Virus record (IMG/VR): IMGVR_UViG_3300004457_000126
Location: 1-34,115 of that record
DNA: 34,115 nt
Reading direction: 5' to 3' (one strand)
Source: a virus
Positions within the stretch are counted from its first letter, which is position 1. Each line of letters begins with the position of its first letter. This document shows, piece after piece, positions 20,170 to 34,115 of this stretch. Below the pieces are notes generated by a model. The model ran no database searches and was not told where the DNA came from. It was given only the letters and a program-made list of their open reading frames with translations. The position numbers were made by a program, and so were the translations under genes.

Positions 20170-20458
20170 TGGATGCCCGTCCATGCAGATACAGGACTTC
20201 AAGGCGGGAGTGACTCTGCCCTTCTCAGAGCGATGTTTTTTCGTTAATGCTATCAGCGGGAAAGAGACTGAGTACCCAGCAGACCAGTGTGACCGCATGA
20301 AGAAGGCCGGACTAATTATCTTATCTGAGGACTGGAAAATCATCCGAAAGAACTTCCAAACGAATTGCCAGATCCTCCAGTGTAAACAATTAGTCGGACA
20401 ATTCGATCAATTATTTATGACCATAGACAAAAGTCTAAAGCTAATCCCCTGGAACTAA
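20117..20458 (+). CDS. Secreted or lipoprotein-like small protein (possible outer spanin)
   Basis: A 113-residue protein that begins MQYAMRLAALLILALVNSGC, a signal peptide ending in a Cys. The residue three before the Cys is Asn, so the lipobox is not canonical; a second ATG at 20129 would give a tighter signal. The mature part has four further cysteines (C at SERCFF, DQCDRM, TNCQIL and LQCKQL), suggesting disulfides in the periplasm. Embedded overlap with an upstream membrane gene is reminiscent of Rz/Rz1 pairs, but the sequence does not look like known Rz1. Confidence 0.5.
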   Translation: MQYAMRLAALLILALVNSGCPSMQIQDFKAGVTLPFSERCFFVNAISGKETEYPADQCDRMKKAGLIILSEDWKIIRKNFQTNCQILQCKQLVGQFDQLFMTIDKSLKLIPWN

Positions 20459-20462
20459 CCGC

Positions 20463-20490
20463 TTGCCATTGAAGAACCGCTGAATACAAT
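20463..20490 (+). promoter_or_regulatory. Sigma70-type promoter for the replication operon
   Basis: TTGCCA (20463-20468) and TACAAT (20485-20490), each one mismatch from consensus, are separated by 16 bp in the only non-coding gap before the replication genes. Transcription would start near 20497 and read a ~120-nt leader. An 8-bp palindrome, TACTAGTA (20507-20514), lies just after the predicted start and could be an operator. Confidence 0.7.
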
Positions 20491-20528
20491 CGTAGGTGGA
20501 TCTACTTACTAGTAGTACCGGACATAAA

Positions 20529-20570
20529 AGCCGTCGCGGGGCACGGCTATAAAGAAACCCCGCACTTTTA
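20529..20570 (+). terminator. Attenuator-like leader with two mutually exclusive hairpins
   Basis: Hairpin 1: AGCCGT (20529-20534) with ACGGCT (20543-20548), 8-nt loop. Hairpin 2: GCGGGG (20536-20541) with CCCCGC (20558-20563), 16-nt loop, followed by ACTTTTAT. The left arm of hairpin 2 is the loop of hairpin 1 and its loop holds the right arm of hairpin 1, so both cannot form as simple hairpins. Hairpin 2 with the T-rich tail looks like a weak intrinsic terminator and hairpin 1 like its competitor. Confidence 0.65.
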
Positions 20571-20618
20571 TACATAACTAGACTCGTTTTCCCTGGACTA
20601 CTGGTTAACACTTTCCGT

Positions 20619-21386
20619 ATGAGTGGACCTAGAATAATACTTTATGATTTAGAGACACTACCGAACCTCCCGGAAGCGCTCAAGCAATGGACACAGCTCT
20701 CCAACTACCCGGGACAGACTCTCAAGGCCAGCATCAGCTCTATCATCTGCGCGGGATGGAAGGTCCTGGGGAGTAAACAGACCCAGTGTATAAACGCCTG
20801 GGATTTCCCGGAGTGGAAGAAGAATGTTAACGACGACAGGAAAGTATGCCTGGCTATCTATGAAGTCCTTAAGGATGCTGACTGTATAGTAACTCATAAT
20901 GGACGAAGGTTTGACTGGAAGTTCCTCCAGACCAGACTCATGTTCCACGGTCTCCAGCACTTACCTAAGATAGCCCACGTAGACACCTGTGCAGAGGCCA
21001 AGAAAAACATGATGGTATTTAACAACCGTTTAAATACCATAGCCAAGTTCCTAACCAAGTACGAAAAAATGGACCACGAGGGATGGGATCTGTGGGTAAA
21101 AGTACATGGCCGAGACCCTAAGGCAATGAAGACAATGGAGAAGTACTGTAAGCAGGATGTGGTAGTTCTCGAACAGGTCTTTAATAAACTCCGCCCGGTC
21201 ATTGGCTCCCTTCCTAACCAAAATTTATTTAATCCCCTAAAGGCTAAGGCGTGTCCTGGGTGCGGCAGCTCAAGACTGATAAGTCGGGGTAAGTACCACA
21301 CACTCACTAAAACCTATAAGCGTTATGTGTGTCAGGACTGTCGGCACTGGTGCCGAACAGATGCGTCGGATGAGGCTCCTAGATGA
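20619..21386 (+). CDS. DnaQ-like 3'-5' exonuclease with C-terminal zinc ribbon
   Basis: A 255-residue protein. The RNase H-fold exonuclease motifs are present: YDLETLP with Asp10 and Glu12, THNGRRFDWKFL (Asp in the NxxxFD motif), and YCKQDVVVLEQVF (YxxxD). The C-terminus adds a four-cysteine ribbon (CPGCGSS...CQDCRHW), which may bind DNA or a partner. The product probably degrades single strands or proofreads in replication; phages with family A polymerases often encode a separate nuclease of this type first in the operon. No good ribosome site precedes the ATG (CTTTCCGT), unlike most genes here, which may make translation dependent on the leader structure. It overlaps the next gene by 4 nt. 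Confidence 0.8.
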   Translation: MSGPRIILYDLETLPNLPEALKQWTQLSNYPGQTLKASISSIICAGWKVLGSKQTQCINAWDFPEWKKNVNDDRKVCLAIYEVLKDADCIVTHNGRRFDWKFLQTRLMFHGLQHLPKIAHVDTCAEAKKNMMVFNNRLNTIAKFLTKYEKMDHEGWDLWVKVHGRDPKAMKTMEKYCKQDVVVLEQVFNKLRPVIGSLPNQNLFNPLKAKACPGCGSSRLISRGKYHTLTKTYKRYVCQDCRHWCRTDASDEAPR

Positions 21387-21628
21387 AGTTTTCAATAGTA
21401 CACATCGTCTGGAGGGACAGTGAAGCGTCTAACGACTGGACGCCCACTGCTGACATCACTAATGAGCTAGACACCACGCACACGGTAGGCATCTTATTGC
21501 GAGAGACTGAGACCTTCCTGCTGGTAGCACTTAGCTACGACCCCTCCACAGAGTCCGTTAATGGGTTCAAGAAAATACCACTGTCCGCAATAGAGGGGGT
21601 GAAAACATTGACCAAACTATCTTTCTAA
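21383..21628 (+). CDS. Hypothetical protein (81 aa)
   Basis: An 81-residue protein overlapping the exonuclease gene (ATGA). It starts KFSIVHIVWRDSEASNDWTP and continues with a beta-rich pattern (THTVGILLRETETFLLVALS) ending KKIPLSAIEGVKTLTKL. That pattern resembles small proteins of unknown function seen in phage replication operons. No catalytic residues stand out. Confidence 0.65.
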   Translation: MKFSIVHIVWRDSEASNDWTPTADITNELDTTHTVGILLRETETFLLVALSYDPSTESVNGFKKIPLSAIEGVKTLTKLSF

Positions 21629-21653
21629 TTCTAGCATTTTCCTGGGGGTGGTT

Positions 21654-22010
21654 ATGGTGGTTCACTATACGTCTAATCATAAGATCCGGGATTTTAAAAA
21701 CTCGCGTCGAGGAGAGTACCGCCAGTGGTGTACCGAAACGTGGGAGAATAAGAAAGTCATTGGCCAAACGGACGACGGTAAACCGATCCACGACCGGGAC
21801 TACACCACGTCGCTAGCCAGAGTTACCTGTGTGCAATGTTTAAACAGACTCATCCCCAAACAAGAATTATTGATAAGTAAAATGAGAGAGGCTAGGAGCG
21901 CGGCTTCCGTTTCCACCGAGACCTGGCCGACGAGTAGGATTGCGTCTTTACCAGATGGCATACTCCGCATAAAAGTTGAAGGTTCGACTGACGACAATAC
22001 ACCCGCCTAA
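21654..22010 (+). CDS. Hypothetical protein (118 aa), converges with antisense HNH gene
   Basis: A 118-residue protein. The ATG at 21654 is preferred over the in-frame GTG at 21648 because GGGGGTGG lies 5 nt upstream of the ATG. It contains a CVQCLNRLIPKQ segment that could form half of a metal site, and a Lys/Arg-rich N-terminus. Its last ~119 nt overlap the 3' end of the HNH gene on the other strand, so the C-terminal sequence of one of the two may be constrained by the other. No family recognised. Confidence 0.5.
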   Translation: MVVHYTSNHKIRDFKNSRRGEYRQWCTETWENKKVIGQTDDGKPIHDRDYTTSLARVTCVQCLNRLIPKQELLISKMREARSAASVSTETWPTSRIASLPDGILRIKVEGSTDDNTPA

Positions 22011-22296
22011 CGTAGTCGTCAAAGTCCCCTTTAAACGGACCTATCTCCTCGATGTGGTCCACTTCCATTGACTTCTCGTCCCTAAACCACCGGAGGCACC
22101 TGGCACAATGCCAGTGGTATTTATAGATCCTCTGGCCCTTCTTACCGACTCTTACGAAAACTTTTTTTCGGGCACGGCGTAAGCACTCGGCGCGGCCCGG
22201 CCACTTTATTGTTCCCTGTCTCAATACATTGATGATGAATAGCTCGTCCTCTCGCGTCACTGTCCAGTGGCCCCCTTGACCAGGTAATAGTTTCAC
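21892..22296 (-). CDS. HNH endonuclease, antisense inside the replication operon
   Basis: A 134-residue protein on the minus strand. It carries a clear HNH/ββα-Me core: YHWHCARCLRWFRD, then EVDHIEEIG, RQSNLQLLCGVCHLVKT. That gives the CxxC pairs, the DH, the central Asn and final His expected for an active nuclease. It starts at a GTG with no obvious ribosome site. A later GTG in TVTRED, 10 nt after GGGGG, is another possible start. Free-standing HNH genes next to phage DNA polymerase genes are frequently homing endonucleases. The antisense orientation within a sense-strand operon suggests insertion. HNH identification is firm; homing role is inference. Confidence 0.8.
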   Translation of the reverse strand: MKLLPGQGGHWTVTREDELFIINVLRQGTIKWPGRAECLRRARKKVFVRVGKKGQRIYKYHWHCARCLRWFRDEKSMEVDHIEEIGPFKGDFDDYVRRVYCRQSNLQLLCGVCHLVKTQSYSSARSRWKRKPRS

Positions 22297-22304
22297 GTTT
22301 TAAA
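22276..22304 (+). promoter_or_regulatory. Candidate promoter upstream of DNA polymerase
   Basis: TTGACC (22276-22281) and TTTAAA (22299-22304) are 17 bp apart and 35 nt before the polymerase start. The -10-like hexamer is part of TTTAAACACT (22299-22308), the reverse complement of the recurring AGTGTTTAAA motif. It overlaps the antisense HNH start, so it could connect expression of both genes. Confidence 0.4.
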
Positions 22305-22339
22305 CACTCACTCAATAATGTTTTTCGGGGGAGCGATAA

Positions 22340-24361
22340 TTGGCGAGAACGGTAGCACTTGATTTTGAGTTCTCCGGCATGGTGGAGCCTAAAGTAACCC
22401 TGGTCTGCTGTACCACTATGGACATGGCTACGAAAACCAGCCGCGACTGGTGGTTACACCGCGACACCGCCGCTCAGAAAAAACTGGCCGACTACCTCCT
22501 GCAATTCGACACAGTGATAGGCTACTCCTGCGTAGCAGAGGCCAGATCCTTTATGGCCCTAGGACTAGACCCACTTGAGTTCGAGTGGGTGGATCTGTTT
22601 CTAGAGTACCGGATGCTGACTAATCACAATGACGAGTTACAGTGGGGGGAGCAGCTAGTAGACGGAAAAGTTAGGAGGGTCAAAAAACCTAAACCTAAGT
22701 GGGAGCGCACCGATGCGGATAAGGCGGAGGGGTTTAAGGCCACTCACTCGCTAGCAGAGGCGACGTTTAAACTCACCGGGAAAATACGCGACACCGAACA
22801 TAAGAAGAAAATGCGGGACCTAATTATCTCAGCTCCCGAAAAGTATTCTGCGGCGGATCGTAAAAGCATCATGGACTACTGCTCCTCTGACGTAGTCTTT
22901 CTCCCCAGGATATGGGAGCGGGTTTGGCAGGAGTTTAAAAAATTAGACGGGGGGACATCCCAAGCTAAGTTTATCGAGGAGGCTATGGTACGGGGCCGCT
23001 ACTCCGCGCACACTGCTATCATGGAGACACTCGGCTATCCCATCGACATTGAGAACACCAGGAATTTCTCTCGGCAGGTAGGTAACATCCTCATGGATGT
23101 GCAGCGTGAGATTAATAAATTATTTCCAGAGATAAAACCTTTTCGCTGGAACCATAAGGATAATAAATTTACGTGGAACCAAAAAATAACCCAAGACTGG
23201 ATAGCAAAGAACCATGACACCAAACTATGGATTAAAACGGAGGGCAAAAAACTCTCTCTGTCGCTTGAGGCATTTGAAAAGCAATACAGTTTCAGACACG
23301 ACTATCCTGCCGACATCTTTGGCGCTCAGATGGTCCGCTTCCTTAAACTCAAGCAGTCCCTATACGGATTCAGTGACAGCGGCGGTAAGCGTAAAAACTT
23401 CTGGGACTCTGTGGGCAGCGATGGTCGTGTAAGGCCATACATGAATCACTACGGCGCTCAGTCGTCTAGATCCCAGCCAGCCGCCAGTGGGTTTATGTTT
23501 CTAAAGCCAGCGTGGATGAGAGCGTTAGTTACCCCTGACCGGGATCATTTCATGGCTGGCATTGACTACGGATCGCAGGAGTTTTTTATCGCGGCTCTGG
23601 AGTCCGAGGACGACAATATGATAGCGGCGTATCTCTCTGGAGACCCATACCTACACACCGCGAAGCTAGCCGGAGCCGTTCCTATGGACGGCAGGAAAGA
23701 AGACCATAAGCCGATGCGGGATCTGTTTAAGGCAACGGTACTCGGCATCTCCTACCTAATGACTAAGCATGGACTGGCTATTAAACTGACTAACGACACG
23801 GGCCGCGTATGGACAGAGGACGAGGCCGAGAATCAAATTGATATGTTCTACGACGCCTACCCAGATTTTAAAAACTGGCAGGATGAGCTACAGAGGGACT
23901 ACCGTAACAACGGGGCGATAGCGCTTCCCTGTGGGTGGAGGATGTTTGGCGATAACGAAAACATCCGGTCAGTGTGTAACGTACCGATCCAGGGATTCGG
24001 CGCGTCGGTAATGAGGAAGGCCGTAGACCTGGCCGTGGGCCGAGGCTGTAAGGTATGCTTCACACTCCACGACGCGCTCTACATTGAAGGACGCATCGGA
24101 CAGGAACATCAAATAAAAATACTGGCCGACTCTATGCGTGACGCATTCGTGTACTACTTCTCCGATAAGAAACTCCGTAACTTCGCCAAGCAAATAAAGC
24201 TAGACCCCTTCGCGTGGAGCCCGGCCTACAAAAAGGACAGCGAGAAAAATATTTCTGGACTCATTGTGCCATGCTCAAATTTGTACATTGATGAGAGGGC
24301 ACAGTATGACTACGATAAATTCTCAAAATATTTTCTTAATGCTGATTCTGATTTACTTTAA
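22340..24361 (+). CDS. polA-like: Family A DNA polymerase with 3'-5' exonuclease domain (Leu762 type)
   Basis: A 673-residue protein starting at TTG with a GGGGGAG ribosome site. The N-terminal exonuclease domain has LDFEFSG (Asp-x-Glu) and YCSSDVVFLPRIW; the middle motif is altered (GYSCVAEARSFMALG instead of NxxxFD), as in some phage relatives. The polymerase domain has motif A GIDYGSQEF (Asp409), motif B with Arg460, Lys464, Leu468 and Tyr472 at the spacing of E. coli R754, K758, F762, Y766, and motif C TLHDALYIEG (His577, Asp578). The residue aligned to Pol I F762 is Leu. It replicates the phage genome with the SSB-like protein and SNF2 helicase downstream. No primase or replicative helicase of the usual kind is seen in the window. 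Confidence 0.93.
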   Translation: MARTVALDFEFSGMVEPKVTLVCCTTMDMATKTSRDWWLHRDTAAQKKLADYLLQFDTVIGYSCVAEARSFMALGLDPLEFEWVDLFLEYRMLTNHNDELQWGEQLVDGKVRRVKKPKPKWERTDADKAEGFKATHSLAEATFKLTGKIRDTEHKKKMRDLIISAPEKYSAADRKSIMDYCSSDVVFLPRIWERVWQEFKKLDGGTSQAKFIEEAMVRGRYSAHTAIMETLGYPIDIENTRNFSRQVGNILMDVQREINKLFPEIKPFRWNHKDNKFTWNQKITQDWIAKNHDTKLWIKTEGKKLSLSLEAFEKQYSFRHDYPADIFGAQMVRFLKLKQSLYGFSDSGGKRKNFWDSVGSDGRVRPYMNHYGAQSSRSQPAASGFMFLKPAWMRALVTPDRDHFMAGIDYGSQEFFIAALESEDDNMIAAYLSGDPYLHTAKLAGAVPMDGRKEDHKPMRDLFKATVLGISYLMTKHGLAIKLTNDTGRVWTEDEAENQIDMFYDAYPDFKNWQDELQRDYRNNGAIALPCGWRMFGDNENIRSVCNVPIQGFGASVMRKAVDLAVGRGCKVCFTLHDALYIEGRIGQEHQIKILADSMRDAFVYYFSDKKLRNFAKQIKLDPFAWSPAYKKDSEKNISGLIVPCSNLYIDERAQYDYDKFSKYFLNADSDLL

Positions 24362-24370
24362 TTTAAAATA

Positions 24371-24393
24371 GGTTTTGAGATTAACTCAAGACC
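24371..24393 (+). promoter_or_regulatory. Hairpin upstream of the SSB-like gene
   Basis: Arms GGTTTTGAG (24371-24379) and CTCAAGACC (24385-24393) form nine pairs including one G-U, with loop ATTAA. It sits 9 nt after the polymerase stop and ~20 nt before the next ATG, which has GAGGAGAGAG. It could be a processing site separating the polymerase and SSB messages, or a translational operator. Confidence 0.5.
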
Positions 24394-24414
24394 ACACACG
24401 AGGAGAGAGAAGCT

Positions 24415-24843
24415 ATGGCTAAAAGAGTGTTTAAAAGCACTAAGAAAATATCGGGGGGCAGTAGCCTATACCGATCATGGGATAAGTGGTCAGAGGATGA
24501 CACTATCATTGGGGAATACATCGGCACTGGACGCCAGGATAAGTACGGTCACGACACGTACAATGTGAAGGTAGAAGAAGTTTTCTTTAATAAACCTTCG
24601 GAGGCTAAAGGACTTCGCGGTAACATCATCACACTTAACCACACAGGCGGGTTCGGTAAGTATATGGCGAACGTAGAGACCGGAGCGATGCTACAGATCG
24701 TTTACAAAGGTCAGAACGAAATCCAGAAAGGCAAGTGGGCCGGAGAGATGGCACACGCTATCGAAGTGGACATCGTAGAAGAAGAAGGAAGCGGAGAGGA
24801 GTACGCAGAGGATGAAGAAGAAATCGAAGAAGACGATCTCTAG
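24415..24843 (+). CDS. Single-stranded DNA-binding protein (OB-fold, acidic tail)
   Basis: A 142-residue protein with a GAGGAGAGAG ribosome site. The body (GGSSLYRSWDKWSEDDTIIG, then EYIGTGRQDKYGHDTYNVKV, and TGAMLQIVYKGQNEIQKGKW) has the beta-strand spacing of an OB fold with conserved aromatics. The last ~24 residues are almost all Glu/Asp, the interaction tail typical of SSBs such as T7 gp2.5. It lies between the polymerase and a RecE-like nuclease, the usual place. The AGTGTTTAAA motif occupies codons 4-7. Family assignment is by fold pattern and context. Confidence 0.75.
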   Translation: MAKRVFKSTKKISGGSSLYRSWDKWSEDDTIIGEYIGTGRQDKYGHDTYNVKVEEVFFNKPSEAKGLRGNIITLNHTGGFGKYMANVETGAMLQIVYKGQNEIQKGKWAGEMAHAIEVDIVEEEGSGEEYAEDEEEIEEDDL

Positions 24844-25765
24844 TCCCTACGTACTAAACGAGTATAACTTCGATATGCCTTCTGAGGTGTACCACTCAAT
24901 AGTAGGTACTTACTCTAGCTCACAGTTCAAAGACCTACTCGACGATGAGGTTCACTTCATCAAGAAGTATGTCGATAAAACTGTGGAGCGAGAGGACGTG
25001 CCAGCGTTTAGCGTGGGTAACTACTTCCACACTGGCGTACTGGAGCCGGAAAAGCTGTCCAAGGACTGCGCTGTATATAGTGGCAAAGTCCGCAGGGGGG
25101 CTGACTGGGAGAAGTTTAAAGCCAAAAACGAGGGCCGGGTCATTGTGACTTCAAGCCAGCGTGAGGAGGCCGAGAGATTAATCAACTCCGTGAAGGCGTC
25201 TGACATAGCGATGAGCTACGTCGATGGGGGGAAGCCGGAGGTATCGCTATTCGTTAAGCTGGCAGTGTACGCAGGAGATATTTACGCCCCAGAATTTAAT
25301 AAGGTATTAGACCGAAATTCTGGATGGGTGGATTTCGACTGGACTCCGTGCGATGCGGTGGAGCTGATAGTGAAAGTCCGGGCCGATAGTCTCGGAGATG
25401 ATTTCGTACTGGATCTAAAGTCTACCAGCGGTAACGCTAGGTCTAATGGCTCGATGAGAAACAAAATCTCATACTATCATTATGACCTATCGGCAGCGTT
25501 GTATTTAGATATTTTCTCCCTGCCAAGGGGGGAGCAGCTAAATAGCTTTATCTGGACGTTCGCATCTAAGGACTATTTCAACTGCAAGTCTTACGTAGCT
25601 AGCTCCCACAATATACGAGTGGGCAGGGCTAAGTACATGAAGGCAATGCTCAGTCTCGCTAATCTAGTGGCTACTGACTATAGAGTTGACGATGTCCTGG
25701 GGGTACTAGAACCGCTACCGCATGAGTTAGAGTATTTAAAAGAAAACGACCTAGATTTAATTTAA
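24812..25765 (+). CDS. RecE-like / PD-(D/E)XK exonuclease
   Basis: A 317-residue protein that starts within the acidic tail of the SSB gene (32-nt overlap). GAGAGGAG lies 9 nt upstream of the ATG. It has the RecE/exodeoxyribonuclease VIII-like layout: YNFDMPSEVYHSIVGTYSSS, then QFKDLLDDEVHFIKKYVDKT, and FSVGNYFHTGVLEPEKLSKD. The catalytic region is IVKVRADSLGDDFVLDLKST (Asp, then D-x-K), followed by YYHYDLSAALYLDIF, the conserved Q/Y helix. It resects double-stranded ends for annealing-based recombination. No ssDNA-annealing (Bet/Erf/Sak) protein is recognised nearby; the next gene is the best candidate partner. Confidence 0.85.
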   Translation: MKKKSKKTISSPYVLNEYNFDMPSEVYHSIVGTYSSSQFKDLLDDEVHFIKKYVDKTVEREDVPAFSVGNYFHTGVLEPEKLSKDCAVYSGKVRRGADWEKFKAKNEGRVIVTSSQREEAERLINSVKASDIAMSYVDGGKPEVSLFVKLAVYAGDIYAPEFNKVLDRNSGWVDFDWTPCDAVELIVKVRADSLGDDFVLDLKSTSGNARSNGSMRNKISYYHYDLSAALYLDIFSLPRGEQLNSFIWTFASKDYFNCKSYVASSHNIRVGRAKYMKAMLSLANLVATDYRVDDVLGVLEPLPHELEYLKENDLDLI

Positions 25766-25782
25766 CCAAACAGGAGAATTTA

Positions 25783-26319
25783 ATGACACCACAGACAGTT
25801 ACCTACACACGCCGTATGCCAATGGAGCAGTACGGTTATTGCGAACTTACGGCTACGGCTACAATCGGCGACGATGAGAACGCGCACGATGCGTTTATGT
25901 CCCTGAAAGAAGAAGTAGAGAAGGCAATCTCTGGAGAGATGTCCGCAGCTTCGGAGACAGTAACCGAGGAGCCAAAGAAAAAAACTAAGGCCAAGGTTAA
26001 AGCGGCCAAGGTTGAAGAAGAAGAAGAAGAAATTAACACCGAAGACACTCCCGACGATGATGAGGGGGAGGAAGTAGTAGCTCCGAAGGCCGCGAGAAAA
26101 ACGAAGTCAAAAACTTCTACCTACTCGCGCTCAAACGAGACTCATAAAGCGTTGTTCGCGGCTACTCTTAATGAGGAGTTCCCCGCGTGGAAAAAAACAG
26201 ATGCCAGTAAAGCTAAGGCTAAGAAATTAAGCCAGTCGCTAGACGGCACTGAGTTCCTAGACGCTGACGGAGAAGTTACTATGTCCTTTATCGCTCTCAT
26301 GCGTAAGGGCATGAAGTAG
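25783..26319 (+). CDS. Charged hypothetical protein, candidate recombination partner
   Basis: A 178-residue protein with an AGGAG ribosome site. The N-terminal ~50 residues are compact (YTRRMPMEQYGYCELTATAT). A Lys/Ala and Glu-rich linker follows (KKKTKAKVKAAKVEEEEEEI). The C-terminal ~55 residues form a basic helical domain (HKALFAATLNEEFPAWKKTD). This N-terminal type occurs in phage replication operons next to a RecE-like nuclease. The very charged disordered linker suggests a flexible tether. It overlaps the helicase gene by one base. No annealase fold can be claimed. Confidence 0.6.
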   Translation: MTPQTVTYTRRMPMEQYGYCELTATATIGDDENAHDAFMSLKEEVEKAISGEMSAASETVTEEPKKKTKAKVKAAKVEEEEEEINTEDTPDDDEGEEVVAPKAARKTKSKTSTYSRSNETHKALFAATLNEEFPAWKKTDASKAKAKKLSQSLDGTEFLDADGEVTMSFIALMRKGMK

Positions 26320-28610
26320 TGAAACCTGCCGCGCCTCTGAGAGAATACCAGGAGCGCGGCATTCTTTACGCAATAAAAAATCCCTACTCAATACTCGCGA
26401 TGGACCCCGGACTGGGAAAGGCACAGAAAAATACTTCAAGAGTTTATACCCCGAAAGGTCCGGTTCCTATTGCGTCCCTGAGTGTAGGGGATATTGTGCT
26501 AGGTCAAAATGGAGAACATAGACGTGTCCTTGGAGTATATCCCCAAGGGGTTAAAGATATTTTTAAAATATCGTTTAATGACGGCAGCTCTACTCACTGT
26601 TGTAAAGAGCATCTATGGTCAGTTCAAAACGGAAATCAAAAGGCCAGGGGTCTTGGATTTAAAGTCCTAGACACGGCTAGCATACAATCTACTTTAAAAG
26701 AGCGAGGGGGAAAACTAAGATGGGTCATACCCCAGCTATCCTCTCCCGCATCTTTCTCCGACAGGGATTTAATCATACCCCCATATTTAATGGGGGTCCT
26801 GATCGGAGACGGGAGTCTGCGGAGGGGGGTAACACTAACCAACCGATCTCCCTTCATATATAAAAGAATAGTAAAGTGCGCTGACGGGTACACGGTTAAG
26901 AGAGTTTCTAGTGGCAATAGTTTCACTATCTCTATACTTGGCAGGGATAAAAATAATAGAAATCCTATGTTCTCGGAGATAAAAAGACTGGGTCTAGATG
27001 TTCTATCCAAGCACAAATTCGTTCCCGATCAGTACAAGTATGGGTCCTTCACCTCTCGACTGGATATTCTAACTGGTATTCTAGATACGGACGGATACGT
27101 CATGTCGGACGGGACTCTACAATTTACTTCGGCATCCGAGAGGCTAGTAGATGATGTCAGAGAGATAGTAGAGAGTTTTGGAGGAGTTGCTAGAAAGCGG
27201 TTTAAAAGGGCTAGATGTCAGACTGGGATATTCAATAGCTGGACTATCACCATATCCATGCCCTGTGGCATGGTGCCGCTATCTAAGCCTTTTAAAAGGA
27301 AAAGATTTAAAGAGAAAACCAAGTACCTTCCTAGGAGGAGAGTAGCCTCTATTGAAAGTGCTGGCAGACATGAGGCTACTTGCATATCAGTGGAGGGCGG
27401 ACACTATCTAACAGATCATTTTATAGTTACACATAACACTAGAATTGCCATTGAACTAAGAGAACGTCTAGGCGGTAACTGCCTAGTGATATGCCCGGCG
27501 TATCTTATCGCTAATTGGGAGGCTGAGATCCGCCTCTGGGCACCTCCCGATAGAGTTGTCACTGCCGTAAAGAAGGGTAAGGATCTTTACGACGTTTTCG
27601 ATTCGGACTACGTGCTGGTTAGCTACGACCTGTGCCAGAAATCAGAACACCTATTTGAGTGGGCGGACATGGTCATTATGGACGAGGCACACCTAGCTAA
27701 GTCAATGAAGGCCAAGCGCACACAATTCATACACAAAAATGTTTACGAGAATAGCATCAAGCGCATACATCTATTGACTGGCACTCCTATTAAAAACAGA
27801 ACGCAAGAATTCTACAGCCTTTTATCGTTGTGTAGCTATTGTCCAGACACACCGGACAGTCGATTTTTAGACGCCTACCCCGATGAAATAACATTCGCTG
27901 ATAAGTTTAGCTACCGGGAGGAGTACACGATAGAAGTAGGCGGGAGGCACGTCACAATACTAAAATGGTCCGGGCTTAAAAACGTAGAGGAGCTAAAAAC
28001 TTACCTGGATGGGAAGTATTTAAGAATTAAGTCTTCAGACGTTCTGGATCTCCCGCAGGTAGTTTTTAAGGACGTTATACTTAGCTCAGAGCCGGACCAC
28101 GCACTGCTAAAAGCCTTTAAAGAATACATAGAAACATACTCAGAGAGATTCGACCCTACGGTCAAGGCTGTATCGGCACTAAGTAAAACTCCGTCCACCA
28201 TAAAGTACGTACAGAATTTAATCGAGGAGACGGGGTGCGCTCTGGTCTACACCGACCACGTCCTAGCGTCGGAGACTCTGGCCAGGGGGCTAGGGACTGT
28301 GGCGATAAACGGGAATATGCCAGCGCACAAACGTATGGAAGCCGTAAACAATTTTCAAGCTGGCCAGGGAACTGTTTTAGTGGCTACAATCGGGTCGCTA
28401 TCCACCGGAGTAAATTTAACCAGGTCTAATCACATAGTCCTTAATGACTTACCTTGGGTGCCCGGAGATTTAAAACAAACTATCTACCGAATTCAAAGAC
28501 TAGGTCAGAAAAATAGTTGTTTTGTTCACAGAATATTCTCCAGCTCAACGGATGAGTACATCGCAGAAGTTCTGTTATCTAAACAGGAGACTATAGACAT
28601 GGCCACTTAA
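26319..28610 (+). CDS. SNF2-family DNA helicase interrupted by an intein
   Basis: The 763-residue precursor starts at GTG. The extein parts (residues 1-34 and 374-763, about 424 residues after splicing) form an SNF2-type helicase. It shows LREYQERGI, Walker A MDPGLGK/T split by the intein, motif II MDEAH (Asp455-His458), LLTGTPIKNR, FNLTR-like TGVNLTRSNHIVLNDLPWVP and QTIYRIQRLGQKN. Without removal of the intein the ATP site cannot form, so splicing should be essential for function. Such helicases in phage replication modules probably assist fork remodelling, branch migration or recombination. It is the last gene of the replication operon. Confidence 0.93.
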   Translation: MKPAAPLREYQERGILYAIKNPYSILAMDPGLGKAQKNTSRVYTPKGPVPIASLSVGDIVLGQNGEHRRVLGVYPQGVKDIFKISFNDGSSTHCCKEHLWSVQNGNQKARGLGFKVLDTASIQSTLKERGGKLRWVIPQLSSPASFSDRDLIIPPYLMGVLIGDGSLRRGVTLTNRSPFIYKRIVKCADGYTVKRVSSGNSFTISILGRDKNNRNPMFSEIKRLGLDVLSKHKFVPDQYKYGSFTSRLDILTGILDTDGYVMSDGTLQFTSASERLVDDVREIVESFGGVARKRFKRARCQTGIFNSWTITISMPCGMVPLSKPFKRKRFKEKTKYLPRRRVASIESAGRHEATCISVEGGHYLTDHFIVTHNTRIAIELRERLGGNCLVICPAYLIANWEAEIRLWAPPDRVVTAVKKGKDLYDVFDSDYVLVSYDLCQKSEHLFEWADMVIMDEAHLAKSMKAKRTQFIHKNVYENSIKRIHLLTGTPIKNRTQEFYSLLSLCSYCPDTPDSRFLDAYPDEITFADKFSYREEYTIEVGGRHVTILKWSGLKNVEELKTYLDGKYLRIKSSDVLDLPQVVFKDVILSSEPDHALLKAFKEYIETYSERFDPTVKAVSALSKTPSTIKYVQNLIEETGCALVYTDHVLASETLARGLGTVAINGNMPAHKRMEAVNNFQAGQGTVLVATIGSLSTGVNLTRSNHIVLNDLPWVPGDLKQTIYRIQRLGQKNSCFVHRIFSSSTDEYIAEVLLSKQETIDMAT
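26421..27437 (+). mobile_element. Class 3 intein with LAGLIDADG homing endonuclease
   Basis: The 339-residue intein spans precursor residues Ala35-Asn373 and lies between Lys and Thr of the Walker A motif (GLGK/T). Residue 1 is Ala, so the usual Cys/Ser nucleophile is missing. Block B has THCCKEHLW, with His98 and Trp100 at the B:10 and B:12 positions. Block F has TCISVEGGHYL, Cys355 at F:4. Block G is FIVTHN followed by T, with Thr371 at G:5 and a Thr at +1. This Trp-Cys-Thr set defines class 3 inteins. The endonuclease has two LAGLIDADG motifs: YLMGVLIGDGS (Asp164) and LDILTGILDTDGY (Asp258), both with the acidic residue, so the enzyme is probably active. Confidence 0.93.
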
Positions 28611-28656
28611 ATTGTATTAGTGTTTCAAAATTAACTTTCACTAAAAGGAGTTTTAA

Positions 28657-28836
28657 ATGCTACGTGTTCAACGTCTTGAGCGACCTACTAAGCGCAGCGG
28701 AGTAAAAATCGAGCCAGGTGGGGCCACGCTAATGCGCGGACTACGGGTAATAAATCAAAATAATTTCTCGGTATGGGTAGATAAATTTACCCCTCCGGCA
28801 CAATTACTAGCTAAGAAAAGAAAAGCTAAGAAATGA
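28657..28836 (+). CDS. Small basic hypothetical protein (59 aa)
   Basis: A 59-residue protein with an AAAAGGAG ribosome site. It reads MLRVQRLERPTKRSGVKIEP, later FSVWVDKFTPPAQLLAKKRK, and ends in a Lys/Arg tail. It overlaps the next ORF by 4 nt (ATGA). The preceding gap (28611-28656) contains TTAGTG and CACTAA arms flanking an AT-rich loop. No family recognised. Confidence 0.65.
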   Translation: MLRVQRLERPTKRSGVKIEPGGATLMRGLRVINQNNFSVWVDKFTPPAQLLAKKRKAKK

Positions 28837-28922
28837 GCTGGCATGAAATAGCAGCGGCGGCATTTAATATTTCCGCTCTGATATTTGTTTACGGAATGGT
28901 CTGGAAAACTTGGAACTACTAA
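28833..28922 (+). CDS. Tiny single-span membrane peptide (29 aa)
   Basis: A 29-residue ORF reading MSWHEIAAAAFNISALIFVY followed by GMVWKTWNY. Residues ~5-22 are hydrophobic enough for one membrane helix, flanked by Trp residues at the interface. It overlaps the upstream ORF and ends 13 nt before the endolysin start. Location directly before the endolysin suggests a holin-like or accessory lysis peptide. It is shorter than any classic holin family, so this is inference. Confidence 0.5.
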   Translation: MSWHEIAAAAFNISALIFVYGMVWKTWNY

Positions 28923-28935
28923 ATTAGGGGGAATC

Positions 28936-29664
28936 GTGACTGACCGAACAGAGGGTATTAAGCGGCTACAATCGGCTCTAAATGGAATGGGGAATAAGCT
29001 GACAGTAGACGGCGACTACGGGCCGATCACTGAGGCCACGACGCTTGGCGCTATCGGACATAAGGGTAATACTGCCCCAGACATTAAACCAGTACCCGAC
29101 GTTAAACCAGCCCCAGTGGTCGCAGGAGGGATGTTCGGCGCTCCGTGGGTGTTCGCTAACATCGACCTACTCGGACGCAGTGAGACCGATCCTGAGTTAA
29201 ATGCGCGGTATGTGCCGGAGTGGAAGCTAGATGGACTGCCGGGATATAAGACGCTGTCCGGCAATTCTTATGCGTGGTGTTCTGTGAGAGAAAACGCCGA
29301 TAAGCGAAAAGTCGGGGTCAGGGGAACTAATAGCGCGGGGGCTAGATCATGGTCTACGTGGGGGAAAAAATGCCCGTTCTGGTTTGGCGCGACACTTGAC
29401 ATCCAGCATCCTGGAGGGGGCCGCCATGTAGGGGACTTCCTTTACTGGATAGACGAGAAGAAGAACCTAGCCGCAATTCTCGGCGGGAACCAAGGCAATA
29501 GATTCTCAGTAGCTTCGGTAAGTTTGGCTCCGGGTCACGATAAACTAGTAGCAGGTCCCAGATGGTCAAATGACGTTAGTGACGGAATATTCGTTTCAAT
29601 GAGCGAAGTTTTAAAAGCGCACCCGTACCTAAAAGTCGGCGGCGCGATGACTAGAACAACTTAG
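28936..29664 (+). CDS. Endolysin (peptidoglycan-binding domain plus TIGR02594-type peptidase)
   Basis: A 242-residue protein. The GTG at 28936, preceded by AGGGGG, is preferred to an upstream in-frame ATG at 28885 that lies inside the preceding small ORF. Residues ~4-42 form a peptidoglycan-binding domain (GIKRLQSALNGMG, DGDYGPITEAT). A Pro/Lys linker follows. Residues ~68-242 match the TIGR02594 family of NlpC/P60-like phage lysins: PWVFANIDLLG, SYAWCSV with Cys115, NSAGARSWSTWGKKC, GGRHVGDFLYW with His164, and ILGGNQGN. It cleaves the host cell wall at the end of infection. No signal peptide, so a holin is needed for release. A strong terminator follows. Confidence 0.88.
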   Translation: MTDRTEGIKRLQSALNGMGNKLTVDGDYGPITEATTLGAIGHKGNTAPDIKPVPDVKPAPVVAGGMFGAPWVFANIDLLGRSETDPELNARYVPEWKLDGLPGYKTLSGNSYAWCSVRENADKRKVGVRGTNSAGARSWSTWGKKCPFWFGATLDIQHPGGGRHVGDFLYWIDEKKNLAAILGGNQGNRFSVASVSLAPGHDKLVAGPRWSNDVSDGIFVSMSEVLKAHPYLKVGGAMTRTT

Positions 29665-29679
29665 TCCGTAGTGGACGCC

Positions 29680-29728
29680 ACGGCTGGCGCTAGGGTCAAT
29701 GTCACCTAGGTACTGCCAGCCGTTTTTT
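29680..29728 (+). terminator. Intrinsic terminator after endolysin
   Basis: Arms ACGGCTGGC (29680-29688) and GCCAGCCGT (29715-29723) are perfectly complementary and followed by TTTTTT. An inner stem CTAGG/CCTAG (29690-29694, 29705-29709) extends the hairpin. This is the strongest terminator in the window. Confidence 0.9.
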
Positions 29729-29740
29729 ACTGGGGGATGA

Positions 29741-29968
29741 GTGGTACAGCCATATTTAGAGCTAATCGACGGCAGTGAAGTAACGGCGGAGATAGACACA
29801 GCGGCTATCGGAATTGACGGCAGATTTCGCCCTGTAATTATTGGAGACGACGAGGGAATAGAGATAAATATTACCATCGACGACGCCCGTAGAGTTTTAG
29901 ACTTCTTGATAGAGGCGATTAAGTATATGGAGTTTAAGTCTAACGCCTATCATGGGAGAAAACAGTGA
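29741..29968 (+). CDS. Hypothetical protein (75 aa)
   Basis: A 75-residue acidic protein starting at GTG with a GGGGGAT ribosome site, directly after the terminator. The pattern PYLELIDGSEVTAEIDTAAI is followed by IEINITIDDARRVLDFLIEA, suggesting beta strands and one helix. It overlaps the next gene by 4 nt. No promoter is clear between it and the terminator, so transcription may come from read-through or a phage-specific promoter. No family recognised. Confidence 0.65.
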   Translation: MVQPYLELIDGSEVTAEIDTAAIGIDGRFRPVIIGDDEGIEINITIDDARRVLDFLIEAIKYMEFKSNAYHGRKQ

Positions 29969-30198
29969 GATCCTTCTACGAGGAGCTGCTAAAAAAATGT
30001 GAGTACGGCCCTTCTGGGGATGGGTTTAGATCTATCTACATGGAAGGCGCTCTCGATGCTAAGGACATCTATTTCGCTAAAATATCGGAAATAGAATTAA
30101 GTCTAAAGAAGTCCTGTACGTGCGAGGTAGTTGACGATTGGATTCCCGTTGGGACCTGTCCGGTATGCGCGGCGATATTGTCGCTTAAGGAGTTTTAG
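29965..30198 (+). CDS. Small Cys-containing hypothetical protein (77 aa)
   Basis: A 77-residue protein starting at a GTG overlapping the upstream stop. After a helical N-terminus (FYEELLKKCEYGPSGDGF) the C-terminus has CTCEVVDDWIPVGTCPVCAA. The four cysteines could bind zinc, as in short regulatory phage proteins. It is followed directly by a TTG-initiated lipoprotein gene whose ribosome site (AAGGAG) lies in its last codons. Confidence 0.6.
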   Translation: MRSFYEELLKKCEYGPSGDGFRSIYMEGALDAKDIYFAKISEIELSLKKSCTCEVVDDWIPVGTCPVCAAILSLKEF

Positions 30199-30342
30199 TT
30201 GAGACTAATAATCGCCCTGCTATTTTTATCTAGCTGTACGCCGACGCTTAAGGACTGCACTAACCGCTGCGCTGCTAAAGGCAAAGCGGTTAAGGCTTAT
30301 CATTCTCGCGGTGTATGTGACTGTGTTGGAGATGTGCCGTGA
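30199..30342 (+). CDS. Short lipoprotein (47 aa)
   Basis: Missed by length-based gene calls. A 47-residue ORF starting at TTG with AAGGAG 7 nt upstream. It encodes MRLIIALLFLSSCTPTLKDC: a short basic-hydrophobic signal and a canonical lipobox LSSC, with +2 Thr favouring the outer membrane by the usual sorting rule. The mature part is 34 residues with five further cysteines (DCTNRC, VCDC). Such small lipoproteins in phages serve as outer-membrane spanins or as superinfection-exclusion factors that block receptors. It is 535 nt after the endolysin. Confidence 0.65.
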   Translation: MRLIIALLFLSSCTPTLKDCTNRCAAKGKAVKAYHSRGVCDCVGDVP

Positions 30343-30393
30343 CATCCACCCCAAGTGAATCGCTTGAGGCAGAACTCGAAGGGAGAGGGCAGG

Positions 30394-30735
30394 ATGAGCG
30401 GCTATATATGTCCAAGTTGCGGTCGCGCTGTTGATCAGCCATTCCTAAACGACTGCAAGCCAAAGCCCGCTGCACCCGCGTGTTGCGCTCCGTCTGCACT
30501 ATTCGAGCGCGCATTAAGGGGAGAGCCAAAGCCAGCCGAGAGCGCGAGTGTCCCGATACTTTGGCACGCTCAAAAGATGAGTGAAATGGTGGATAAACTC
30601 GCCGCCGCTGAGTTGAAGGCTGGGGAGTATGAGAGGGCGCTGGAGAAAGTCGTGATGTATGCCTGCGACGCAGACGAGCGCAGGGAAATTGCGCGCAAGG
30701 TGCTCGCCGCGCACAGAAGAGGGGGAGAGTCGTGA
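30394..30735 (+). CDS. Small zinc-ribbon hypothetical protein (113 aa)
   Basis: The ATG at 30394 is preferred over an in-frame upstream start because GGGAGAGGGCAGG precedes it. The protein begins MSGYICPSCGRAV, with further CKPK and CC residues within the first 40, then a charged helix (MSEMVDKLAAAELKAGEYER) and a basic end (DERREIARKVLAAHRRGG). The N-terminal CxxC with later cysteines suggests one metal site. It overlaps the next gene (GTGA). Base composition is higher in G+C than in the late genes. Confidence 0.55.
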   Translation: MSGYICPSCGRAVDQPFLNDCKPKPAAPACCAPSALFERALRGEPKPAESASVPILWHAQKMSEMVDKLAAAELKAGEYERALEKVVMYACDADERREIARKVLAAHRRGGES

Positions 30736-30944
30736 AAAAACATTGGGTTAACTTTATTGCAACTATCCATGGAGCAGTACTCGTTGAAGGAGACGACACG
30801 CCAGAGGATGCTGGTAAATATGTTAAGCGCCACCTCGACATTTCGGCAGACGCTGAGGGAGTAGACGCTGAAATTAACGATGCATCCATTACCATAGAAA
30901 ACTGTTATGAGGACCGCCCCACGAAAGAGGCCGAGCGTGAGTGA
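30732..30944 (+). CDS. Hypothetical protein (70 aa)
   Basis: A 70-residue acidic protein starting at a GTG that overlaps the previous stop, with GGGGGAGAG 3-11 nt upstream. The pattern KKHWVNFIATIHGAVLVEGDD, APEDAGKYVKRHLDISADAE and NDASITIENC is beta-alpha-beta and resembles many short phage early proteins, but no named family is recognised. Confidence 0.6.
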   Translation: MKKHWVNFIATIHGAVLVEGDDTPEDAGKYVKRHLDISADAEGVDAEINDASITIENCYEDRPTKEAERE

Positions 30945-30953
30945 GGGGGAGAC

Positions 30954-31151
30954 GTGACCGACTACGGACTGACTCCATTTCAGCATAAGGTTTTAAAAGA
31001 ACTGCTCAAAGGTAAGTCTAACCGTGAGATAGCAGAGGCTTTAAACATAACCATAAGAGCGGTTAAAGGTCGGATGATCTGCATTGCGATTAAGTACGGT
31101 GTCGCTAAAAGACACGAGATTGTAACAAAACACCACGGGATAAGATCGTGA
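30954..31151 (+). CDS. Stand-alone LuxR/GerE-type HTH regulator
   Basis: A 65-residue protein starting at GTG with a GGGGGAG ribosome site. The sequence LTPFQHKVLKELLKGKSNRE, IAEALNITIRAVKGRMICIA is a full GerE-type helix-turn-helix (L-T-x-x-E/Q-x-x-V-L-x-x-x-x-x-G-x-S-N-x-E-I-A). No receiver or autoinducer-binding domain is attached, so it binds DNA constitutively or with a partner. Its target may be phage or host promoters. It overlaps the next gene (GTGA). Confidence 0.8.
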   Translation: MTDYGLTPFQHKVLKELLKGKSNREIAEALNITIRAVKGRMICIAIKYGVAKRHEIVTKHHGIRS

Positions 31152-31345
31152 CAGAATTACCAGGCGCGCCAGAATGTCCTACCTGCTCTAAGCATAAGAA
31201 AGTGGCCAAGGACTATTCAGAACTAAACGCCGAGCTACTTGACCGCAACAGGCAGCTATCATTTCGCTTGCGTGAGATCAGGAGACTTCTGTCTCCGTTC
31301 ACTAAAGCATTGTCGGAGATGTCCGAGAGAGCGAACCCCAATTAG
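31148..31345 (+). CDS. Small hypothetical protein with CxxC and coiled coil (65 aa)
   Basis: A 65-residue protein starting at a GTG overlapping the HTH gene stop. The N-terminus has PECPTCSKHKK, one CxxC; residues ~20-60 form a charged coiled coil (DYSELNAELLDRNRQLSFRL). Two such chains could share a zinc site. The overlap suggests co-translation with the HTH regulator and a possible partner role, which is inference. Confidence 0.55.
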   Translation: MTELPGAPECPTCSKHKKVAKDYSELNAELLDRNRQLSFRLREIRRLLSPFTKALSEMSERANPN

Positions 31346-31346
31346 C

Positions 31347-31577
31347 ATGGAAACACGCGGACGCAGTGAGCATAAAAGACGGGGCGGTAAACGAAAGGAT
31401 AGGGTCTTTCGCATCTACGTGGAACTGCCACCAGGCGTAGACGAGAATGACTTTATGGACTACGCAGAGGAGGCAATAACTTCCTACTGGGCGTACTGCA
31501 ATCCCTCATCAACTCATGGCGAGTATCTAGAGGGCGCTTGCGTGAAACGACACTCCGTAAATCCATACAAAAAATGA
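31347..31577 (+). CDS. Hypothetical protein (76 aa)
   Basis: A 76-residue protein. The ATG at 31347 lies 1 nt after the previous stop and is preferred to an upstream TTG inside the preceding gene. It begins METRGRSEHKRRGGKRKDRV (very basic), followed by FRIYVELPPGVDENDFMDYA. A basic N-terminus with an alpha/beta body suggests nucleic-acid contact. It overlaps the HNH gene (ATGA). Confidence 0.6.
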   Translation: METRGRSEHKRRGGKRKDRVFRIYVELPPGVDENDFMDYAEEAITSYWAYCNPSSTHGEYLEGACVKRHSVNPYKK

Positions 31578-31960
31578 GACCGAAGAAATACACTCCCAGA
31601 CATAAGCGAGAGAGTAGCGGTCGAAGGTTCAACGGCAGGAAAGATATTGATGCCATGTACGGCCCCGAATGGGAGTCGTATAGGGGCAAGTTTCTAGCGA
31701 TAAATCCCCGTTGCTACGCTTGCGGGGAGAGGGCGACAGTCGTGGATCATATTACTCCGCATAAAGGGGATGCGAAGTTATTCGAGAAAACCGATAACCA
31801 CTTACCTTTATGTAAAAGAGATCACGACAGGGTTACAGCCCTATTCGATATGCGCTACCGATCTGGTAACACTATTGAGCCTAAATTAAAGTGGTTAAAA
31901 AACTCAAGGGTATCTCGGGACCTTACCTTTAGGGTTAAGGTCCTACCCTCGTACCCCTAA
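31574..31960 (+). CDS. HNH endonuclease (terminase-associated type)
   Basis: A 128-residue protein. The ATG at 31574, overlapping the previous stop, is chosen over an upstream TTG. The motifs WESYRGKFLAINPRCYACGE, ATVVDHITPHKGDAKLFEK and NHLPLCKRDHDRVTALF are the HNH core (VDHI, N..LC..DHD). The PHKGD..LF segment is typical of HNH proteins next to the terminase genes of cos-packaging phages, where they help the terminase cut. If so, the cos site and terminase may lie nearby in the circularised genome. It converges with the SprT-like gene, overlapping it by 4 nt. Confidence 0.88.
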   Translation: MRPKKYTPRHKRESSGRRFNGRKDIDAMYGPEWESYRGKFLAINPRCYACGERATVVDHITPHKGDAKLFEKTDNHLPLCKRDHDRVTALFDMRYRSGNTIEPKLKWLKNSRVSRDLTFRVKVLPSYP

Positions 31961-32520
31961 GCCGCTTCAAAATAAAGCGGCTCCGAATTACACGCGCATA
32001 ACGGTGGTCCAACTTCGAGGATCTTACTCATTGAGGCGCGACAGATAAAACCGCACTCCCTGCACTCCATCTTTATCATTCTGGTTGTCTGTTTCTTAGT
32101 CGGTCGCTTGAGCAGATTTAGCCTAGTGTGGGGGTACTTACCGATAGAACGAATGGTTTTCTTGATTACCTTTTCCAGGTCCTTTCCGGCAGTAGTTGAG
32201 CGCATCTTTCCCTCTAGTCCTACAGCAAGGGCACATTTTTTAAATACGGGTCCGTGGCCAGCTTCATTGCCAACCGCTGCGTGGACCATCTCATGGATGA
32301 GGACTCCCAGTACCTCTACCCCGTCGTCAATAACGGGGGAGATAAAAATGGACCCAACCTTATCGCTGGACGCCTCAGGGCGCCAGTGCTCCCCTATGCG
32401 TTTCTTTCCTCCGCCCGGAAACCCGACGGAGACCTTTACCTTTGGCACAGTATACCCGTGTCGTTTAAACATCTCTGAGAATTTCTTTATGGCCTTTTCT
32501 AAATATTGTTCTCTGGTCAT
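31957..32520 (-). CDS. SprT-like zinc metalloprotease
   Basis: A 187-residue protein on the minus strand, starting at the ATG that overlaps the upstream TAA (TAATG); a GTG at 32535 adds five residues. The catalytic motif HEMVH (76-80) and a downstream His89 in EAGHGPVFKKCA match SprT/Spartan-like proteases. The C-terminus has a zinc ribbon (CRECGFIC ... CACN). Spartan enzymes cleave proteins crosslinked to DNA; in phages the target is unknown but could be host or terminal DNA-bound proteins. The gene is last in the leftward operon. Confidence 0.88.
   Translation of the reverse strand: MTREQYLEKAIKKFSEMFKRHGYTVPKVKVSVGFPGGGKKRIGEHWRPEASSDKVGSIFISPVIDDGVEVLGVLIHEMVHAAVGNEAGHGPVFKKCALAVGLEGKMRSTTAGKDLEKVIKKTIRSIGKYPHTRLNLLKRPTKKQTTRMIKMECRECGFICRASMSKILEVGPPLCACNSEPLYFEAA
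31960..31982. terminator. Hairpin at convergent gene junction
   Basis: Arms AGCCGCTT (31960-31967) and AAGCGGCT (31975-31982) pair perfectly around a 7-nt loop, exactly where the HNH and SprT-like genes converge. It encodes the last SprT-like residues. Neither side has a T run, so at best it is a weak bidirectional terminator or a barrier to antisense RNA. Confidence 0.5.
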
Positions 32521-32903
32521 TAGAAAACCACACACTTTCTAATTTTATCCACGGTACTTGAAACGTCTCGGTTATTGCCAGAGTCCGTAACGGACCCAAT
32601 AATGTACGCCGGACCTACTATTTTAATGGGGGGAACGTCCTCGAATACGAGGAGAAAAGGGACTAGCTCACTATTAAACAGAGCCTCCTCGTTAGCGTAC
32701 ACCTCATCCCCGTTTGGCAGAGTGCAGATCCTTTCAATGAGTCCCCCGACAATGGCCTGGGCATCCTCTAGAGAGGACACCACACTGTTAACTATTGAAC
32801 GCGCTGCCGGATCTACCACTACTACTTTTCTACCCATCTTATTTTTCTTCACAGTCCCCATCCTTCTTCTAAGGGTTAGTTCCTCTAAATGTTTTCTGTG
32901 CAT
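32520..32903 (-). CDS. DUF3846-like protein
   Basis: A 127-residue protein. The body SIVNSVVSSLEDAQAIVGGL, ICTLPNGDEVYANEEALFNS and IKIVGPAYIIG follows the DUF3846 pattern (a V-x-G-x-I-E-x motif, NEE, N-x-x-A, G-x-x-x-I-G). DUF3846 proteins are common in phages and plasmids, function unknown. An AGGTAGG ribosome site precedes the ATG. It sits 3 nt after the putative regulator and is coupled to the protease gene by TAATG. Confidence 0.7.
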   Translation of the reverse strand: MHRKHLEELTLRRRMGTVKKNKMGRKVVVVDPAARSIVNSVVSSLEDAQAIVGGLIERICTLPNGDEVYANEEALFNSELVPFLLVFEDVPPIKIVGPAYIIGSVTDSGNNRDVSSTVDKIRKCVVF

Positions 32904-32906
32904 TGC

Positions 32907-33278
32907 CTACCTGCCCTGACGTAGACTTCTCAATAGGGCCACTTTCTTCTCTGCTGATAAGGATGCGTCCAGGATAAGGTCAGCCAGTACTTGCGTATCG
33001 TCTTTCTTGGCATTCACTGACTTAGCAGGAGCGGCGTCACTATAGGTAACTTCCCTTGAGGATCTCTTGCTGTTTTTACGTATCCCTGACATCTGTCCCT
33101 GGCTAGAAATGCACTGTCCTGTTATATCCCCTCCATTGGGGGTCTTAAATCCCTCTGCGCTCAAAATCGAAACCATACCCTCATACGTGTGTCCCAATTT
33201 GTGTAGCGCCTTAATTCGAGACCGTATTTTACGTCTGGTGGACTTATCATACTTATTATTAGGAAACGTAGCTGCCAT
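32907..33278 (-). CDS. Putative DNA-binding regulator
   Basis: A 123-residue basic protein with an AGGAGC ribosome site 7 nt before the ATG. Residues ~10-60 (RRKIRSRIKALHKLGHTYEG, MVSILSAEGFKTPNGGDITG) resemble the recombinase/transposase-type HTH that starts with a helix, then 'TYEGM..IL..EGF.T..G', with a recognition helix near QCISSQGQM. The C-terminus (SAEKKVALLRSLRQ) is a separate helix. It is first in its operon, and two copies of the AGTGTTTAAA motif lie upstream, one overlapping a candidate promoter, which suggests it could bind there and control itself. Repressor role is inference. Confidence 0.6.
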   Translation of the reverse strand: MAATFPNNKYDKSTRRKIRSRIKALHKLGHTYEGMVSILSAEGFKTPNGGDITGQCISSQGQMSGIRKNSKRSSREVTYSDAAPAKSVNAKKDDTQVLADLILDASLSAEKKVALLRSLRQGR

Positions 33279-33479
33279 GTAATAGCTCCTGGTTAGTGTT
33301 TAAACAACTATGCCATGCCCGATACGTTCTAACAATAGAAAACATTTTTTAAAGTTGTTTTTAGATTAATAACGTGAGATAGTGTTTAAACACTGCTAGT
33401 AGGGGGCTCGATAGCCAGGGGTATGCCATACCAGGGGGAGTCTCTTTTAAAGACAGTGCGGATTTTTAGGGTCGGAGCC
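33279..33479 (-). promoter_or_regulatory. Regulatory gap with palindromic operator candidates and promoter
   Basis: This gap has no gene. AGTGTTTAAAC at 33295-33305 and the perfect 14-bp palindrome AGTGTTTAAACACT at 33381-33394 are the recurring motif. On the minus strand TTGTTA (33335-33330) and CATAGT (33312-33307), 17 bp apart, form a moderate promoter. The first motif overlaps its start site. A further inverted repeat, GGTAT/ATACC with 3-nt centre, lies at 33420-33432. Together these look like an operator-promoter region. Confidence 0.5.
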
Positions 33480-33833
33480 TTACGGCGGAGTCTGATGTTC
33501 ATCCGGCAGCATGGCGTTCCCACAAACCTGACACGACCTAGCTATCCTATTCTCTCGGAGAAGTCTTCGTAGAAGTAATTCTGCCTCAATAAATGCAGCT
33601 ACTCTTACCTTCTTTTCCCTTAAACTTCTCCCAGGATTTTTCTGAATTTCTGCCAAAAAATCGGCAGTTTTTTTGATTTTACTATCCGTTATTTCTGGGT
33701 CTGTCGGGGAAGTAACTCCACGAATAATCTCCATAGCGTCTTGGAGTAAGGAGTCAGAAAGTCTCTGGGAGTTAGCCATATATCTCTTAAAATAATTTCT
33801 CGGAGTCCGACGTTTTCTAGATTTAATTTCCAT
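33480..33833 (-). CDS. Hypothetical protein with C-terminal CxxC (117 aa)
   Basis: A 117-residue protein. The ATG at 33833 is chosen; an upstream TTG at 33860 would add nine residues and lacks a better ribosome site. It starts MEIKSRKRRTPRNYFKRYMA (basic) and is helical through the middle. It ends ARSCQVCGNAMLPDEHQTPP, a single CxxC. This composition resembles small phage proteins of the terminase-proximal area, but no family is recognised. Confidence 0.55.
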   Translation of the reverse strand: MEIKSRKRRTPRNYFKRYMANSQRLSDSLLQDAMEIIRGVTSPTDPEITDSKIKKTADFLAEIQKNPGRSLREKKVRVAAFIEAELLLRRLLRENRIARSCQVCGNAMLPDEHQTPP

Positions 33834-34077
33834 GATAATTTTTCCCGCAGCTACCCCCAAAAGTCAAAAATTTTTGTTGCAGGGATCTAATAGGAAATAT
33901 GGAAAACAGCCCATATCCACTGGTTTTTTATCTCGATTTGCTACATGGCACGGTTATCCGTTCGAGATCAGATCGGATACGTTGGCTGGCATGATAAATA
34001 TTCTGAGAAAACGCTAACTACGCGAAACTCTGCAACCCCTTGATGATACGTCCAGATCCGCCACGTTCGACCATCTC

Positions 34078-34115
34078 CCTCTATATATTAGAGGCCGAGA
34101 GCCGAGAGCCGAGAG
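34078..34115. repeat. Terminal hairpin and 7-bp tandem repeat
   Basis: The arms CCTCTA (34078-34083) and TAGAGG (34089-34094) flank TATAT. Three copies of GCCGAGA follow (34094-34114) to the end of the window. The preceding 33834-34077 stretch holds no convincing gene. The simple repeat may mark an assembly break. Confidence 0.6.

Follow-up and report, generated by a model that had tools for sequence, protein, structure and literature searches.

The window considered here is the whole 34,115-nucleotide stretch of the IMG/VR virus record IMGVR_UViG_3300004457_000126. It contains a 201-bp gap (33279-33479) that is flanked by two leftward open frames, and a leftward predicted promoter in this gap serves a three-gene operon (33278-31957). 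The first gene of the operon (32907-33278, minus strand) encodes a 123-aa protein of no family, which is a candidate regulator by position only; the second (32520-32903, minus strand) encodes a DUF3846 protein (PF12957; E 3.1e-9, above the curated cut-off), and the third (31957-32535, minus strand) an SprT-like protein (phrog_6361). Two copies of a short inverted sequence are present in the gap. Copy 1, at 33381-33394, is the 14-bp palindrome AGTGTTTAAACACT, the sole perfect palindrome of at least 14 bp in the window, while copy 2, AGTGTTTAAACAAC at 33295-33308, is identical to it at 12 of 14 positions and lies 16 bp upstream of the 32907-33278 gene. Both contain the 13-bp direct repeat TAGTGTTTAAACA, with a start-to-start distance of 86 bp. 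They form the only palindromic repeat pair in the intergenic DNA of the window, and at least two palindrome copies thus occur beyond chance within this one intergenic region: a comparable pair was found in none of 30 intergenic shuffles, and of 200 Markov-3 genomes spanning the whole window, one had a perfect 14-bp palindrome accompanied by a near copy no more than 150 bp away.

Each copy touches or overlaps the best predicted -10 element on one strand of the gap. The best sigma70-like match on the minus strand (33307-33335) reads TTGTTA-17-CATAGT with an extended -10 (TGG) and has a score of 10, whereas its counterpart on the plus strand (33355-33383) reads TTGTTT-17-GATAGT with an extended -10 (TGA) and a score of 9. 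For the leftward promoter, about 3% of 300 shuffles equal or exceed its score of 10; for the rightward one, about 25% of shuffles attain 9. Neither prediction is therefore strong taken singly, the rightward one being weak alone; promoter consensus matches across 20400-34115 are generally at shuffle level. The two -35 elements stand back to back, 19 bp apart, and each promoter leads directly into one of the palindrome copies, the register being almost identical (CATAGT-TGTTTAAACACT versus GATAGT-GTTTAAACACT). Copy 1 overlaps the last bases of the rightward -10 together with the start point, and copy 2 touches the leftward -10 and covers its start point. An earlier note on this DNA, made from the sequence alone, had stated that two sites overlap candidate -10 or start regions; the 33.3-kb copies touch or overlap predicted -10 and +1 positions, one of the two promoters being weak. 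What the DNA shows directly is the sequences of the pair, its repeat and palindromic form, the spacing, a location between genes and the in-register placement on the predicted promoters. Rightward of the 33355-33383 promoter, only short open frames, none of them convincing, extend to the contig end. The window closes on a short 7-bp tandem repeat (GAGAGCC; 34085-34115), and the right end of the related contig G004 carries a 15-bp tandem repeat; as both end in this way, repeats rather than a genome end are probably where the two contigs break off.

Judged from these features, the 33.3-kb pair most likely represents repressor operators in an ordinary phage control region, a reading held with reasonable though limited confidence, and its role is probably that of a common on/off switch acting on a small set of leftward genes. 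In the proposed arrangement, 33279-33479 would be a regulatory region with two 14-bp palindromic operators, one over the -10/+1 region of each of two back-to-back extended -10 promoters. With a dimer on either copy, the last part of the -10 element and the start point of that promoter would be covered, and a dimeric regulator occupying the two sites would silence the leftward operon (33278-31957) together with a rightward transcript. At a spacing of 86 bp, which is about eight helical turns, two dimers could come to lie on the same face of the DNA. Promoter activity, repression, autoregulation by an operon product and bridging of the two sites would be the inferred steps of this scheme. Phage repressor operators of the lambda OR, 434 and P22 type lie over divergent early promoters, and the pair resembles them in consisting of short, perfect or near-perfect repeated palindromes over the -10/+1 regions of back-to-back promoters, upstream of a small gene. 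Unlike these systems, which have three adjacent sites, the window has one site per promoter; moreover, no cI/Cro-like helix-turn-helix protein has been identified in it, and a rightward gene is not seen before the contig ends.

The pair could also be viewed as a replication origin, in which initiator-binding repeats flank the AT-rich stretch at 33340-33372. The presence of such a stretch between two repeats fits this idea, as does the viral contig L078, in which a gene contains two copies of a palindrome near-identical to that of the window, separated by 33 bp, as can be the case for origin iterons. However, the window has two copies only, the skew turn at about 32 kb simply follows the turn in gene direction, relatives with the same replication genes are without the pair, and an operator accounts better for the promoter register, all of which makes an origin quite unlikely.

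The 10-mer AGTGTTTAAA, shared by the pair, had been proposed in the earlier note as a candidate phage operator recurring at gene starts. A motif search of both strands of the window reproduced its four exact places and their coordinates, namely 22299-22308 (minus strand), 24426-24435 (plus strand), 33295-33304 (plus strand) and 33381-33394, and returned no others; the last counts on both strands, with 33381 and 33385 as the two strands of one palindrome. The chance expectation of 0.07 matches given at the time is close to that of an order-1 model (0.086, about 0.09), whereas orders 2-5 give 0.15-0.33 because TTTAAA occurs at about twice the level of synonymous codon shuffles, and all such figures refer to a motif picked after inspection of the data. 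TTTAAA is found 46 times in the window against 23 in synonymous codon shuffles and 33 times in its coding part against 12.8 expected (about two-fold beyond codon usage), and the excess is present in some relatives too. This over-representation also inflates the count of one-mismatch AGTGTTTAAA matches, which is 15 in the window compared with 2.4 expected from dinucleotide shuffles and about 7.9 from synonymous shuffles that leave the non-coding sites unchanged; 10 of the 15 are intragenic, including those in late genes at 1816, 8422 and 12421. Separately, CTGAAC, GATTAC, AAGCTC and CTGAAG are nearly missing from the coding DNA of the window. A genome so rich in TTTAAA, combined with post hoc choice of the motif, might suggest that the 33.3-kb pair is pure coincidence, but the shuffle and Markov-3 statistics of the pair make this very improbable.

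Only two of the four exact places (33295 and 33381) form a convincing element. The 24426 place coincides with codons 5-8 of an SSB-like gene (peptide KRVFKS). RVFKS is kept with other codons in four of six close relatives (CGGGTATTTAAGTCG twice, AGAGTGTTCAAATCA and AGAGTTTTTAAATCA), the two most distant of the six carry RTYKA and RVFKT, and 2% of synonymous shuffles recreate the motif there; G001 and G006 come within one mismatch of it at this site because of the protein sequence. As relatives retain an RVFKS-type peptide with other codons, the 24426 copy is best read as a coding coincidence and not as an operator at the SSB gene start: it is intragenic, and no exact copy is found at SSB starts in the relatives.

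The 22299 place lies within the 43 bp that separate the HNH gene from the DNA polymerase gene. Since only 0.006-0.010 exact AGTGTTTAAA matches would be expected in all intergenic DNA outside the pair, this may be a weaker, partial third operator (22299-22308, minus strand), but its best 14-mer agrees at just 11 of 14 positions. The orthologous gaps of the six close relatives show nothing of the motif, although all six share the divergent arrangement of HNH and polymerase genes. The HNH gene itself (21892-22296, minus strand), described as antisense, keeps its place and orientation in all six with 43-59% identity, and on this account it is a fixed gene of the lineage and not a recent insertion. 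The weaker relatives of the motif that had been singled out at 20604 and 28619 show six and three mismatches to the 14-mer, respectively; sites with three to four mismatches are spread through late genes also, and these two belong to the background that over-represented TTTAAA creates genome-wide.

These observations bear on the genome-wide network envisaged in the earlier note, in which AGTGTTTAAA at 22299 and 24426, in the 33.3-kb pair and at the weaker sites would be the target of a single regulator that thereby coordinates replication genes. It gains from the exact match in the short divergent gap at 22299, rare as such matches should be in other intergenic DNA, and from the fact that all four exact places are confined to the right-hand part of the window, with replication or control genes close by. 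On the other side stand the coding origin of the 24426 copy, the partial 14-mer at 22299, the complete lack of the motif at the orthologous HNH/polymerase starts of six relatives and the occurrence of weak sites in late genes, and the network is accordingly considered unlikely. Loss of the motif at orthologous starts, which the earlier note had named as evidence against its proposal, is what the six HNH/polymerase starts and the SSB starts display, yet operators can turn over with their repressor. Cluster A mycobacteriophage stoperators are numerous, asymmetric and bound by a monomeric repressor (PMC9283540). The idea of several repressor sites over a phage genome is common to both cases, but the window has two good palindromic sites at one locus, and a dispersed set with many intergenic copies was not found in it, 22299 alone being both intergenic and exact outside the pair. 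A multi-gene operator network is mostly not supported. The operator idea stands for the two copies in 33279-33479, a repeated palindrome that lies outside genes and is aligned with two divergent predicted promoters.

With respect to the regulator, the 32907-33278 product gave no match above noise in Pfam, PHROG, NCBIfam or PDB. No DNA-binding domain could be detected in it, and it has no homologues among the viral contigs, the phage records or 18 relatives. A single-sequence model of it (mean pLDDT 64, low confidence) contains three N-terminal helices and has no fold match; a sharper model was precluded because there are no homologues to align. Alternative candidates are a 65-aa LuxR-type protein with a GerE domain (30954-31151) or a host protein. 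The latter would be consistent with the pair being the site of a host transcription factor exploited by the phage, since no phage regulator with a convincing DNA-binding fold lies beside it. Furthermore, the 14-bp palindrome occurs within ATAGTGTTTAAACACTAT, between TTGACA and TATAAT, in the unrelated viral contigs L077 (8183) and L079 (1586), where this promoter lies upstream of an Hsp20-like gene. The pair is nevertheless absent from all 18 relatives. A polymerase search of genome contigs returned no match and so pointed to no host; a host-factor site is given a low probability. A lone palindrome copy is weak evidence by itself, because ATAGTGTTTAAACACT or its complement, found in 15 other viral contigs, is mostly located inside genes encoding VFKHY or CLNTI peptides. 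The exact pair pattern had no match in any of the viral contigs, a DNA similarity search of a 281-bp region against phage records gave a chance AT-rich match only, and a literature search on the palindrome yielded nothing relevant.

The 18 usable relatives were obtained from polymerase searches, and several of these records are fragments in which absence is not proof. Across the 18 whole records, exact AGTGTTTAAA occurs a single time, within an open frame of 750 aa in G018, and neither the site pair nor any match to the 32907-33278 or DUF3846 proteins was found; the pair is thus missing from records in which no counterpart of the first two operon genes was seen either. The window also contains an SNF2-type helicase gene (26319-28610) whose Walker A motif (GLGK/T) is split by an insert that resembles an intein and matches LAGLIDADG and Hint (residues about 37-373; about 26427-27437). 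The first residue of this insert is, by eye, alanine and not cysteine or serine; in G001 and G006 this gene is uninterrupted.

One relative, G003 (IMGVR_UViG_3300026302_000007), with a 56% identical polymerase, has a repeated intergenic palindrome of its own, AGTTGTTGACAACT, at 137, 44596, 52843 and 52910, the last two copies being 67 bp apart. Like the pair in the window, these are 14-bp AGT-N8-ACT palindromes that are intergenic, paired at one locus and situated at predicted promoters; unlike it, they have a different core, in three copies out of four a -35-like TTGACA, and lie at -35 rather than at -10/+1. The G003 set is larger than that of the window and operator-like. In addition, G004 carries single-mismatch copies of AGTTGTTGACAACT at 68 and 36573, the second of them at the coding start of the HNH gene. 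Palindromic sites of this size thus recur at predicted promoters in the lineage, which speaks for the operator reading of the pair in the window, as does the palindrome in the TTGACA/TATAAT promoter of L077 and L079. Since G003 carries its own palindrome, operators of similar general size may differ between phages and are perhaps phage-specific. A bolder extension, for which the probability is small, is that every phage in the lineage has a 14-bp AGT-N8-ACT palindrome peculiar to it and quick to evolve (AGTGTTTAAACACT in the window, AGTTGTTGACAACT for G003), and that a novel kind of small repressor recognises it, for instance the 123-aa protein without a family (32907-33278), which would give phage-specific immunity types.

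The fate of the four-place motif illustrates that codon-level coincidence can make a short motif resemble a genome-wide operator. If the paired operators are real, they would mark the control region and a likely regulator gene of an uncultured phage lineage in which this analysis brought no repressor to light, and they would supply two testable operator sequences.
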